Source: Gemmatimonadota bacterium
GTDB lineage: Bacteria > Gemmatimonadota > Gemmatimonadetes > Longimicrobiales > Gaopeijiaceae
Assembly (NCBI GenBank): GCA_007121455.1
Contig: SKKN01000023.1
Span: 124,001-188,000, forward strand
Length of the DNA stretch: 64,000 nucleotides
Direction: 5' to 3'
Shown: piece by piece, positions 39,367-44,005 of the stretch
How the letters are laid out: each line of letters begins with the position of its first letter
Position numbering within the stretch: position 1 is the stretch's first letter
Made by a program: the position numbers and the translations under genes
Notes under the pieces: generated by a model
What the model saw: the letters and a program-made list of their open reading frames with translations, nothing else
Databases searched by the model: none
What the model was told of the DNA's origin: nothing

Positions 39367-40398
39367 GTGTCCGGTAGCCGGAAGGAGACCCTGCGAGTGG
39401 GAGAGCTCGAAGCAGGAGTCCGGGTAGATCGGTACCTCGCGGACACGCTGAACCTTTCCCGTACTCGGATCCAGCACCTGCTCGACGAGGGAATGATCCT
39501 CGTCGACGGGAGGCGTCCGCGAAAATCAGAGCAAGTCGAGGCCGGCCAGCGGATCGAGGTGGAGGTCCCACCTCCCGAGCCTTTGAGCGAGGAGCCGGAG
39601 GACATCCCGCTCGACATCGTCTACGAGGACAATGCGCTCCTCGTCGTGGACAAGCCCGCAGGGCTCGTCGTGCACCCCGCGCCCGGGCACCCCGGGGGGA
39701 CGCTCGTGAACGCGCTTCTCCACCATGTGGATGACCTTTCCGGAATCGGGGGGCGGCTCCGGCCCGGGATCGTCCACAGGCTCGACCGCGACACCTCCGG
39801 ACTTCTCGTGGTTGCAAAGGGTGACGAGGCGCACCAACGCCTCTCCGAAGCGCTGAAGGCGAGGAACGTTCGAAGGATCTACAAGGCTCTGGTGTGGGGG
39901 CATCTCCCCGAGGATGAGATGCGAGTGGATGCTCCGATCGGCCGGGACCCCAGGAACCGGAAACGCATGGCGGTGGTCGACGGCGGGCGGCGGGCGGCGA
40001 CCCGATTCCGGGTGCGGGACCGATGGCCCGCCGCGGAGCTCCTCGAGGTCGCGCTCGAGTCCGGAAGGACGCATCAGATCCGGGTGCACCTCCTCCATCT
40101 CGGGCATCCCATCGTCGGAGACCCCGTCTATGGAGTTGGTTGGGAGCGGGGGATGAGTGGACCGGCCAGGGGGTGGGCGATGGAACTCGCCCGGCGCGTA
40201 CCTCGCCAATTTCTGCATGCCGCAGTTCTGGCCTTCGACCACCCTTCGACCGGTGAGCCGATGCGCTTCGAAGTGCCGCTGCCTCCGGACCTCGCCCATG
40301 TGGTCGAATGGGTGGAGGAGGGGTACAGGGACCAGGAGGCGCGCGACGGGGGAGGGTACGCTCAGGAGGACCGAGCCGATGCGGAGGAGGGTGTGTAA
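39367..40398 (+). CDS. rluD: RluD-family ribosomal pseudouridine synthase
   Basis: A 343-residue enzyme. An N-terminal S4 RNA-binding domain (VRVDRYLADTLNLSRTRIQHLLDEG) precedes the catalytic domain with HRLDRDTSGLLVVAK, which contains the catalytic aspartate. SGRTHQIRVHL follows. It modifies uridines in 23S rRNA helix 69 in well-studied members. The final 20 residues are acidic and low complexity. The GTG at 39367 is 11 bp after lspA; the stop shares one base with the start of the DnaA-like gene. Confidence 0.94.
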   Translation: MSGSRKETLRVGELEAGVRVDRYLADTLNLSRTRIQHLLDEGMILVDGRRPRKSEQVEAGQRIEVEVPPPEPLSEEPEDIPLDIVYEDNALLVVDKPAGLVVHPAPGHPGGTLVNALLHHVDDLSGIGGRLRPGIVHRLDRDTSGLLVVAKGDEAHQRLSEALKARNVRRIYKALVWGHLPEDEMRVDAPIGRDPRNRKRMAVVDGGRRAATRFRVRDRWPAAELLEVALESGRTHQIRVHLLHLGHPIVGDPVYGVGWERGMSGPARGWAMELARRVPRQFLHAAVLAFDHPSTGEPMRFEVPLPPDLAHVVEWVEEGYRDQEARDGGGYAQEDRADAEEGV

Positions 40399-42386
40399 TG
40401 GAGCTCGACCGTCGGATGACCTTCGACACGTACGTGGTGGGGCCCGCGAATCGTCTCGCCACCGCCGCGGCCCGTCGAGCCGCGGATTCGCCGGGGACCA
40501 GCTACAACCCCCTCTTCCTCTATTCTGCCTCCGGACTGGGAAAGTCGCACATCCTCACTGCCGTCGCGCAGCACGCGACCCGCACCAAACCGGAGCGGAA
40601 GGTCGTATACCAGTCGCTCGAAGGGTATCTGGATGAGCTGACGCAGTCGCTTGGGAGCGGGGACAAGGACGGAATGCGGGACCGGTACCGCGACCTCGAG
40701 ATTCTCCTCCTGGACGACGTGCAGTTTCTCACCGGCCAGACCCAGGCGCAGGAGCTCCTTCTTCGAACCCTCGATACCCTGGCTGCCCAGGGCAGCCAGG
40801 TCGTCCTTGCGAGCGATCGGCCGCCTGCGGAGATCAACGGATTGGACGCCCGACTTCTCTCCCGCTTCTCCGGAGGGCTCATCGTCGACATCGGCACTCC
40901 TGATTACGAGACGCGAGTCGCGATCATGCGGAGAAAGGTCGAGGAGAGGAGTGCCCGGCTCCTCCCGGGCGTCGCCGAAGCCATGGCCCGCCATCCGTAC
41001 AAGAACGTGCGGGAGCTGCAGGGAGCGCTGAACCGGGTGCTGGCGGTCCAGGACCTCGAGGACCGCCAGGTGGCGCCCGATGAGGTGTACGGCATCCTCG
41101 GTGTGGGGGACGCCGGCCGCGCGGACGAGGGCAAGCCGGAGCCCCAACCGGTCGTCCCTGAGGTCGAGGAGGAGCCGGAACCCGAGCCGGAGACATGGAG
41201 GCAGACCCTCCAGAAGGAGGCTTCAGTCGCAGAGGAGGAAGGGTACTCCGCGGCGCGACTTCACCGACTCCTGGCGGCCGATGTCGAGCCTGAGGACCTG
41301 GAAGGGGTGGTCCGACGGTTTCGTCGTGACGTGGAGCGGCTTCAGGAGATTGGTGCGGCGTTGATCGAGCTGGGGAGTCCGTCGTCGGATGCGGACCAGA
41401 CGGTCCTCGAAGATCCCGAGCGGCTAGAGGAGGCCGAGGCCCTGCTCGCTTCTGCGAGAGAGCGGCGCAGACCCTTCCCCGAAATCGGGAATGGCCCCGT
41501 GCTTTCCGAGCTCACCGGTCGTTACCCACCCCTGGCACTCCGTGCCGCGGAACGGTTCGTGCTACAGGAGAGGCCGGAGTACAACCCGCTTTACGTCGTT
41601 TGCTCGGAGAGGGTTGGTGCGAACGACCTTCTGCGGGCGACCGGCCGAACTCTCCTCGGCATTCGGCCGAACGCCCGGGTGGCGCTCGTATCCGTGCAGG
41701 AGTTCGCCGAGGACTTCATCCGGGCGATCTCCGAGGGCGTGGCGGGAGCGTGGCGGGAGCGATGGTGGAGCGTGGACCTCTTCCTCCTCAGCGGCGCGGA
41801 GGCGCTTTCCGACACGGAACGGGCACAGGACGAGTTCTTTCACCTCTTTGAGGCACTGAAGGGGCAGGATGCGCGCATCCTGATCACCGCAGACTGCCCT
41901 CCTTCGGAGATCGAGAAGATCGACGACCGCCTGCGCTCCCGGTTCGAAGGAGGGCTCGTGGTGGAGGTCGACGGTTTGGAAGTCACCGATACCGGGGGCG
42001 GGGAGGTGGAGCTCGAAGTACGCGGGAGCGCCGCGGGGGAAGGCACGGTAGCCGAGGTCGAGGAGCACGACCGCGGGAAAGACCCCGCTCCGGCGACTGC
42101 CGGGGTGGAAACCGTCGTTCCGGACGTTCCGGTTCCGCCGACCGGTGTGGTGGGCGACGGGACGGGCAAGCCTCGCTCCGGAACGCACTCGGATGACCTC
42201 GCCCTGATCCGTGAAATCTCCGGGGTCGGGGCCCGTGCCACTCGGAAGCCCGATGAAGAGGGAAGCGTTGTGGCGGAAGGGTCTTCGGCCAAGGGGCCGG
42301 ATGGAGAGGAGGTGTGGAGGCCGAACCCGGAGAAGGTGGTCTGGCGCTGGCCGCGACTTGCGGACGTCCTCGAGGAGGACGACTGA
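40398..42386 (+). CDS. Tandem DnaA-like AAA+ protein with degenerate second domain
   Basis: A 662-residue protein. Residues 8-235 form a DnaA-type AAA+ module: YNPLFLYSASGLGKSH (Walker A, 36-51), LLLDDVQFL (Walker B, 103-111), LASDRPPAEI (sensor 1), ARLLSRF (arginine finger, 151-157) and NVRELQGAL (sensor 2, 203-211). A charged linker with coiled-coil character spans 240-360. A second module (395-527) again starts YNPLYV, but Walker A is RVGAND and Walker B is LFLLSGAEAL, while the DRLRSRFEGGL box is intact and the lid is missing. The tail is disordered. The DnaA DNA-binding domain is absent, so this is not the replication initiator. It is coupled to the PATAN-TPR gene. Confidence 0.88.
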   Translation: MELDRRMTFDTYVVGPANRLATAAARRAADSPGTSYNPLFLYSASGLGKSHILTAVAQHATRTKPERKVVYQSLEGYLDELTQSLGSGDKDGMRDRYRDLEILLLDDVQFLTGQTQAQELLLRTLDTLAAQGSQVVLASDRPPAEINGLDARLLSRFSGGLIVDIGTPDYETRVAIMRRKVEERSARLLPGVAEAMARHPYKNVRELQGALNRVLAVQDLEDRQVAPDEVYGILGVGDAGRADEGKPEPQPVVPEVEEEPEPEPETWRQTLQKEASVAEEEGYSAARLHRLLAADVEPEDLEGVVRRFRRDVERLQEIGAALIELGSPSSDADQTVLEDPERLEEAEALLASARERRRPFPEIGNGPVLSELTGRYPPLALRAAERFVLQERPEYNPLYVVCSERVGANDLLRATGRTLLGIRPNARVALVSVQEFAEDFIRAISEGVAGAWRERWWSVDLFLLSGAEALSDTERAQDEFFHLFEALKGQDARILITADCPPSEIEKIDDRLRSRFEGGLVVEVDGLEVTDTGGGEVELEVRGSAAGEGTVAEVEEHDRGKDPAPATAGVETVVPDVPVPPTGVVGDGTGKPRSGTHSDDLALIREISGVGARATRKPDEEGSVVAEGSSAKGPDGEEVWRPNPEKVVWRWPRLADVLEEDD

Positions 42387-44005
42387 TGGCGATCGAGGGA
42401 TCCCTCACCGACGTCGATCTGGCGGATATCTGCCAGCTCCTTGCGATGGGGCGGAAGACGGGGTGCCTGACGGTCACGGACCGTTCGAACTTCGGCTACG
42501 TGTACTTCGAGCAGGGCCGGATCAGCTACGCCTCGATCCTGAACCGACCGGACCGGTTGGGTGAGCTCCTGGTCCGCAACGACGTGATCACGCGAGGGGA
42601 CCTCTCGCAGGCGATGGAGATGCAGGCGCACCATCCAGGGAAGCGACTGGGTCAGATCCTCGTGGAGCGAGGGAGCCTCACCGAGGAGGAGCTGACTCGA
42701 TACATCACCGTCCAGATCGAGGAGGCCGTGTATCATCTCTTCGGATGGGATCGGGGAACCTTCCATTTCGACCCGGAAGAGCGCCCGGACGATGGGGCGT
42801 TGAAGGTGTCCATCCATGCGGAAGGCCTCCTCCTGGAGGGTGCCCGGAGGGTGGACGAGTGGAGCATGATCGAGAAGAAGATTCCGAGCATGGATCTCGT
42901 CTTCTCCCTCGAAAGGGATCCGCTGGGAGAGGAGGATGTGGAGCTCACCGAGGAGCAGAGGAAGGTGCTCCCGCTCCTCGACGGGGCGCGAAGCGTTGAG
43001 GAGATCGGGAAAGAATCGGGCCTGGTGGAGTTCGACGTGGCGAAGGCGGTCTATGGGCTTCTACAGGCCGGCTTCGCGCGGCGGTCCGGCCAGAAGACCG
43101 AAAAGGCCGAAGAGCCGGGTGACGCGCTGCTCCACCAGCATTTGAACCTCGGGCTTGCCTTCTACCGAGCCGGGATGCTGGAGGATGCCGAGCGGGAGTT
43201 GGACCGTGCGCTCGAGATCGACTCCACCCAGGTGGAAGCCCGGCGCACGCTCGCACTGATCGGGCTCAAGTCGGGGCGGACCGAGGAGGCGCTGGAGCAC
43301 CTCGTCCGGCTCGCAGAGAATGCTCGGGTGAGCCCCGGTACGCTTCGAAACCTCGCGTTCGCCCTCGAGTTGCTGGAGCGTTACGACGATGCGCTGGACG
43401 CCCTGGCACGCGCAGAAACAAGCGGTGTCGCGAAAGAAGACCTCGACGTCGCCCGGGCGGTCCTCAACCTGAAGCGGGGAGATCCGAAGCGATCGCGAGA
43501 CATCTTCCGCCAATACCGGAAGGAATCGGGAACGGCCCTCTCGCCGATCTACTACGCCTACGCCCTTCTCGCCGAAGGGGCGGCGGGCAACCCGGAAGCT
43601 GCGCTCGCGCTCGGGCGGGAGGGGCTCACGCGCTTCCCGGAGGACGGGGCGATCATGGTCAACCTCGGAGTGGTCCTCGAGCGAAGGGGTGAAACCGAAG
43701 CTGCCGAGGCGCTCTATCTGCGAGCCGTCTCCGGAGGCGACACGCCTCCCCAGGCGCACAAGAACCTGGGGGACCTGGCGTACCGCCGGGGGGACCCGGC
43801 GAGCGCTCGTGCTCACTACGAGAGAGCGATCCGGATCGACCCGAAGCTCGGAGACGATACCTACTTGAAGCTCGGCAACCTGGCCTACAAGGAGGGGGAG
43901 CGCGAGTGGGCGGTGGGGCTCTGGCAACGAGCCCTCGAGTTGAACCCGCGAAACGAGGTCGTGCGGACGAATCTGGAGCTTCTGGCGGCGACCCCCGAGC
44001 GATGA
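42386..44005 (+). CDS. PATAN (DUF4388) and TPR protein
   Basis: A 539-residue cytosolic protein. Residues 1-150 match the PATAN/DUF4388 type: GSLTDVDLADICQLLAMGRKTGCLTV, then YFEQGRISYASI. Embedded within it are two short repeats, LGELLVRNDVITRGDLSQAM and LGQILVERGSLTEEELTRYI, resembling GspE/MshE N-terminal motifs. Residues 195-235 look like a winged-helix-type extension. From about 250 to the end there are TPR repeats. PATAN proteins act in signalling linked to motility and surface functions in other phyla. The ATG overlaps the DnaA-like stop (TGATG), so the two proteins are probably partners. Confidence 0.88.
   Translation: MAIEGSLTDVDLADICQLLAMGRKTGCLTVTDRSNFGYVYFEQGRISYASILNRPDRLGELLVRNDVITRGDLSQAMEMQAHHPGKRLGQILVERGSLTEEELTRYITVQIEEAVYHLFGWDRGTFHFDPEERPDDGALKVSIHAEGLLLEGARRVDEWSMIEKKIPSMDLVFSLERDPLGEEDVELTEEQRKVLPLLDGARSVEEIGKESGLVEFDVAKAVYGLLQAGFARRSGQKTEKAEEPGDALLHQHLNLGLAFYRAGMLEDAERELDRALEIDSTQVEARRTLALIGLKSGRTEEALEHLVRLAENARVSPGTLRNLAFALELLERYDDALDALARAETSGVAKEDLDVARAVLNLKRGDPKRSRDIFRQYRKESGTALSPIYYAYALLAEGAAGNPEAALALGREGLTRFPEDGAIMVNLGVVLERRGETEAAEALYLRAVSGGDTPPQAHKNLGDLAYRRGDPASARAHYERAIRIDPKLGDDTYLKLGNLAYKEGEREWAVGLWQRALELNPRNEVVRTNLELLAATPER

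Follow-up and report, generated by a model that had tools for sequence, protein, structure and literature searches.

A DnaA-derived protein of the Gemmatimonadota that carries two AAA+ modules in a single chain is probably an ATP-switched part of the MglA/type IV pilus system that controls polarity, its second module acting as arginine-finger donor in the family of the organism from which our sequence comes (denoted f1 in what follows). Membership in the MglA/type IV pilus system, judged by genetic association and context, is likely, and the particular mechanism that we suggest for the second module in f1, finger donation with capping or stimulation, is drawn by analogy and is put forward tentatively. 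In what follows the window is the whole stretch of 64,000 nucleotides that was analyzed (contig C28, positions 124001-188000, of a 3.53 Mb genome in 80 contigs), the tandem protein that it encodes is called P0001, and the first and second AAA+ modules are denoted D1 and D2. Coordinates of all features are collected in Table 1.

Table 1. Features of P0001 and of its partner gene, with positions in the window.
Feature	Position	Strand	Basis
P0001, DnaA-derived tandem AAA+ protein, 662 aa	40398..42386	+	ORF and Pfam
D1, predicted complete DnaA domain III (AAA+ base and lid), residues 3-236	40404..41105	+	Pfam Bac_DnaA; structure match
D1 Walker A, GLGKS, residues 46-50 (K49)	40533..40547	+	K in 41/41 homologues
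D1 Walker B, LLLDD, residues 103-107	40704..40718	+	D106 and D107 invariant across 41 homologues
D1 arginine-finger box, RLLSRF, residues 152-157 (R156 = E. coli DnaA R285)	40851..40868	+	R in 40/41 homologues
D1 sensor-2 box, NVREL, residues 203-207 (R205 = E. coli R334)	41004..41018	+	R in 36/41 homologues
Linker domain, helical bundle, residues 265-357, ~93 aa	41190..41468	+	pLDDT >90; present in short and long forms
D2, degenerate DnaA-type AAA+ base domain, residues 366-530, Walker A/B lost, lid missing	41493..41987	+	Pfam, structure, alignment
D2 arginine-finger box, RLRSRF, residues 511-516 (R515), retained	41928..41945	+	Motif comparison
Low-confidence tail, probably disordered, variable among relatives	41988..42323	+	pLDDT <50 at 533-601 and 608-634
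Conserved C-terminal peptide around EKVVWRWP, residues 643-662	42324..42383	+	Alignment of homologues
Partner gene, DUF4388 (PATAN) with MshEN match inside, then TPR repeats	42386..44005	+	Profile matches

Two DnaA-type modules in one chain had been proposed in a preliminary description of this DNA, and both are recovered here by independent routes. The Pfam model Bac_DnaA matches P0001 twice in a search of the genome (E 8.5e-52 and 9.3e-29), and the whole protein scores E 2.8e-81 over two stretches. An AlphaFold2 model places D1 at residues ~1-236, a helical linker at 265-357 and D2 at ~366-530, followed by a low-confidence tail; D1 and D2 both adopt the AAA+ fold with pLDDT values above 90, and their mutual placement is of low confidence (pTM 0.50). 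When the linker and D2 were refolded alone a pLDDT of 96 and a pTM of 0.87 were obtained, and the resulting model superimposes on DnaA domain III with a Z score of 25.3 (168 residues, rmsd 1.6 Å), so that an AAA+ fold is indeed predicted for residues 395-527, where the preliminary description had located it. The absence of DnaA domain IV also stands, the signature GGRDHST being absent and Bac_DnaA_C not among the Pfam matches, and domain I is missing as well. A canonical dnaA with domain IV and GGRDHST sits on a separate contig of the same genome (L001). Against the DnaA model TIGR00362 P0001 scores 370.1 bits, above the cut-off of 343.9, in two stretches of which the best covers model positions 103-329 of 437; apparently the scores of the two modules sum, and automatic pipelines may label its gene a second dnaA in error. 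PADLOC returned one weak P-loop match and nothing else.

The model of D1 matches domain III of B. subtilis DnaA with a Z score of 31.9 over 237 residues (rmsd 1.8 Å, 41% identity), and all four catalytic boxes, Walker A, Walker B, arginine finger and sensor 2, are in place, as had been noted previously. By its motifs and modeled fold D1 is thus a complete DnaA-type ATP switch, with ATP site, arginine finger and lid. The positions of E. coli DnaA V211 and R245, which we take to be contacts to single-stranded DNA, are not kept in D1 and are mostly H/T and E/Q in the P0001 family.

D2 reads ERVGAND where Walker A, and LFLLSGA where Walker B, would be expected. It is without the lid (sensor-2) subdomain in P0001, and the chain is predicted to be disordered after residue ~532. 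All 21 f1 proteins have lost both Walker motifs of D2, and 18 of the 21 match the finger box, in agreement with the earlier reading of a module that has given up its nucleotide motifs and kept its finger box and DnaA base fold. Three f1 members (L022, L024 and L026) have a D2 that does not match the simple finger-box pattern. The linker and D2 together retain 52-56% identity across f1 genera. Loss of the ATP motifs with retention of the finger box is the pattern expected of an arginine-finger donor.

To the earlier domain picture, correct in its modules, must be added the loss of the D2 lid, the conserved linker at 265-357 and the tail motif at 643-662. The linker is conserved across the phylum; it has no Pfam match, no confident sequence relative in the PDB (best E 0.04) and, searched folded together with D2, no structural match among the matches listed. 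In the tail W651 is the same in all 39 aligned homologues, a few tails having diverged when the wider set is considered, and the peptide E-K-V-V-W-x-W-P is found in all three architectures described below and not in the other neighboring ORFs. Nearly all forms of the family have in common D1, the novel helical linker and a tail around an almost invariant tryptophan.

Gemmatimonadota form a large bacterial group of soils and waters, and homologues of P0001, scored by presence of the linker domain, occur in 176 of 298 genomes of the phylum, leaving ~40% without the protein; 91 homologous loci were examined. Three architectures are found: D1, linker and tail (~395 aa) in f3 (Longimicrobiaceae) and f9; D1, linker and an intact D2 in f4, f5, f6 and partly f2; and D1, linker and a dead D2 in f1. 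Because both modules are intact in 59 of the 65 two-module proteins outside f1, the pairing of one active with one degenerate module is, on comparison of the homologues, a derived, lineage-specific end state of f1. The preliminary description had suggested a closed, self-activating pair; this cannot be the original mechanism of the family, since most two-domain relatives are intact and f3 and f9 have D1 only. In a domain tree D1 (support 100/99), D2 (79/98) and canonical DnaA separate, the f1 branch of D2 is long (0.88), and two origins of D2 are left standing, from D1 or separately from DnaA. The reach of the search beyond Gemmatimonadota is defined by a scan of named genomes with a single 9-residue pattern, which gave matches in Gemmatimonadota only, one locus corresponding to the Gemmatimonadota genome G038. 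On plasmids all matches were of the ordinary dnaA-like kind and covered less than 80% of the P0001 query, and in the open-access PMC literature we found no description of tandem DnaA, of DnaA-like motility proteins, of DUF4388 with MglA or of Gemmatimonadota DnaA paralogues.

The gene order in the window is ileS, lspA, rluD, P0001, a DUF4388/TPR gene and a Peptidase_MA gene. The start of P0001 overlaps the stop of rluD by one base (TAATG, 40396-40400) and its stop overlaps the start of the partner gene to the same extent (TGATG, 42384-42388), suggesting translational coupling at both junctions. The partner, the sole DUF4388 gene of this genome, scores 133.2 bits for DUF4388 (cut-off 25) and 51.0 bits for the MshEN c-di-GMP-binding model NF053729 (cut-off 38), and the predicted MshEN-type c-di-GMP motif at 42554-42712, inside the DUF4388 domain, may be the known helical insertion of PATAN. 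Conservation of this neighborhood is extensive: where enough sequence is available a PATAN(DUF4388)/TPR gene lies directly downstream in 85 of 86 loci and mglA directly upstream in 74 of 83, the latter linkage being a feature of loci outside f1. Loci linked to mglA often lie within a CheA-roadblock-mglA-CheR-CheD-CheB cluster. In f9 the order is CheA - CheC/X - TPR - DUF4388/TPR - TPR/roadblock - roadblock - roadblock - MglA - DnaA-like - DUF4388/TPR - CheR - CheD - CheB, with Pfam matches to CheA, CheC/X, DUF4388-TPR, three Robl_LC7 proteins, CheR, CheD and CheB and a GTPase identified as MglA (E 1.4e-77 against the M. xanthus protein). PATAN genes have been noted near some mglA genes (PMC4316618), and of ten proteins that STRING shows co-occurring with SgmX two are PATAN proteins (PMC11580455).

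In f1 itself mglA is adjacent in none of seven loci. The genome of the window has a single bona fide mglA (2.8e-86), away from P0001 at L137:8637-9215 (G000:C19), two genes after recR and before pgsA, cinA, grpE and dnaJ, these neighbors having been named by eye from ORFs. No Robl_LC7/MglB homologue was detectable in this genome or in eight further f1 genomes (0/9), whereas Robl_LC7 proteins were found in 8/8 genomes from outside f1.

Co-occurrence across genomes points the same way as gene order. MglA is present in 176 of 176 carriers of the protein versus 57 of 122 non-carriers (Fisher p 7e-32, a value that ignores kinship and overstates the independent evidence), and within f1 in 24 of 24 carriers versus 13 of 49 non-carriers. 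At least three PilT-family ATPases are encoded in all 24 f1 carriers, the counts ranging from 3 to at least 6, and in 3 of 49 f1 non-carriers (p 2e-16, kinship ignored). A better guide than such kinship-blind p-values is provided by changes within genera, which are concordant in g8, g13, g14 and g23 and discordant in g22. In that last genus genome G226, unlike its relative G287, has five PilT-family genes and neither MglA nor a P0001-like protein could be found, reflecting either an incomplete assembly or a real exception. Since 57 genomes have MglA alone, the P0001-like protein is not obligatory for MglA.

CheA was considered as a key partner in f1 and ruled out, being present in only 5 of the 24 carriers. 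Counting against the assignment of P0001 to the MglA/type IV pilus system in f1 are the broken mglA linkage, the roadblock genes that were not found and the 19 of 24 carriers that lack CheA, and because of these same three features the system is altered in exactly f1, the lineage of the window.

How does P0001 compare with proteins of known function? It resembles DnaA in domain III, as quantified above for D1, and in the base fold of D2, and is unlike DnaA in having two AAA+ modules, no domain I, no domain IV to bind DnaA boxes, neither V211 nor R245, a separate canonical dnaA in the same genome and a distribution linked to MglA and pili. Hda/HdaA is likewise a DnaA-derived AAA+ protein without domain IV and with an arginine finger; Hda, however, has one module and an N-terminal clamp-binding motif, whereas P0001 has two modules, no consensus match to that motif and a score below the Hda cut-off. 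The neighbors of the P0001 family, MglA, roadblock, chemosensory and PATAN/TPR proteins, are those of the Myxococcus MglA/MglB module and its effectors (SgmX, FrzS, SopA and PATAN proteins), and the dependence of its presence on MglA and pilus ATPases is a further likeness to that polarity system. In M. xanthus SgmX is recruited to the leading pole by MglA-GTP and in turn brings in PilB, the extension ATPase (PMC11580455). SgmX, FrzS and SopA have domain architectures other than that of P0001 (PMC11580455), and in the literature on the Myxococcus MglA/MglB system we found no DnaA-type AAA+ protein.

The preliminary description had offered regulation of DnaA, control of replication timing or something unrelated as possible roles. 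A replication role is not likely for P0001, and a specific version of it, in which the protein controls replication timing as an Hda-like or DnaA-titrating regulator, its fingers stimulating ATP hydrolysis on canonical DnaA or its D1 co-polymerizing with that DnaA, is very improbable. Among characterized proteins it is admittedly closest to DnaA domain III, with Hda at a greater distance, the D2 finger box is retained, and the sensor 2 and Walker boxes of D1 are intact. However, the clamp-binding motif of QL[SP]LPL type has no consensus match, only one loose partial match inside D1, the score against TIGR03420 is 109.2 for a cut-off of 194.8, some 40% of Gemmatimonadota genomes do without the protein, whose presence is instead tied to MglA, and the neighbors are motility and signaling genes rather than replication genes. 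With mglA and PATAN/TPR genes alongside, MglA in every carrier and PilT numbers that track the protein, it is the last of the earlier options, a function unrelated to replication, that gene neighbors and co-occurrence favor. Still less credible is a decaying, functionless duplication with a drifting D2. The lost Walker motifs and long f1 branch of D2 would fit; against this, the ORF is full-length in all eight f1 loci examined, D1 is fully conserved, the linker and D2 keep the identity across f1 genera given above together with the finger box, and stop and start overlap by one base with a conserved partner gene.

Two other readings stay within motility, and both are unlikely. The f1 protein could have taken over the job of a GAP or GEF for MglA, as roadblock was lost, MglA kept and D2 changed simultaneously; in f1 Robl_LC7 is found in none of the nine genomes and the ATP motifs of D2 are gone from every protein, and elsewhere they are intact in nearly all two-domain relatives. 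Yet roadblock genes co-exist with the protein in most relatives, so that standing in for them is not its basic role, an MglB that has diverged may score under the Pfam threshold, and we know of no AAA+ protein that acts by this route as GAP for a Ras-like GTPase. Alternatively, P0001 might load or remodel the hexameric pilus ATPases PilB and PilT, by analogy with AAA+ proteins of the DnaA/DnaC type, whose target is the hexameric helicase DnaB. The DnaC/DnaI/IstB clade is the next fold match after DnaA for both D1 and D2, and presence in f1 tracks the number of PilT-family ATPases, but DnaA domain I, which makes the DnaB contact, is absent and no direct pilB or pilT linkage is seen in the fetched loci.

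We therefore return to P0001 as an ATP-switched component of polarity control and outline how it might operate. Upon binding ATP, D1 would assemble as DnaA does, inserting its arginine finger into the ATP site of a neighbor. Clamp-loader delta' and some ORC subunits are inactive AAA+ modules that retain the arginine finger and sit beside an active module. Because the f1 D2 can presumably offer a finger to a neighbor and has no site to take one in, it would limit or cap the assembly and stimulate the D1 ATPase, much as inactive clamp-loader subunits do; the analogy is to be read with the difference that the delta' and ORC examples are separate subunits, whereas in P0001 a single chain holds both modules and only f1 shows the inactive state. 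Linker and tail would provide the output, the conserved tail peptide docking a partner, either the PATAN/TPR protein or MglA-GTP, c-di-GMP input would enter via the MshEN segment of the PATAN/TPR partner, and the complex would help to decide where or when pili assemble. A more far-reaching version, which we regard as speculative and rather doubtful as a whole, is that an initiator AAA+ module was duplicated and recruited to polarity signaling, forming an ATP-dependent, DnaA-like assembly by which both the Ras-like GTPase MglA and, through the PATAN/MshEN/TPR partner, c-di-GMP are coupled to placement of type IV pili, and that in f1, with no detectable MglB, the one-active/one-inactive pair may regulate MglA itself.

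Domain III of DnaA is known for the initiation of replication, for its regulation and for control of transcription. If our assignment is correct the P0001 family would provide, as far as the searched open-access literature shows, the first case of a DnaA-type motor with a place in motility and polarity. The natural series of D1 only, D1 with an active D2 and D1 with a dead D2 offers a test of how arginine-finger sharing evolves. The family forms a branch without the DNA-binding and helicase-binding domains that is widespread and genetically tied to MglA and pilus ATPases, suggesting that a piece of the replication machinery has been reused for the control of surface movement.
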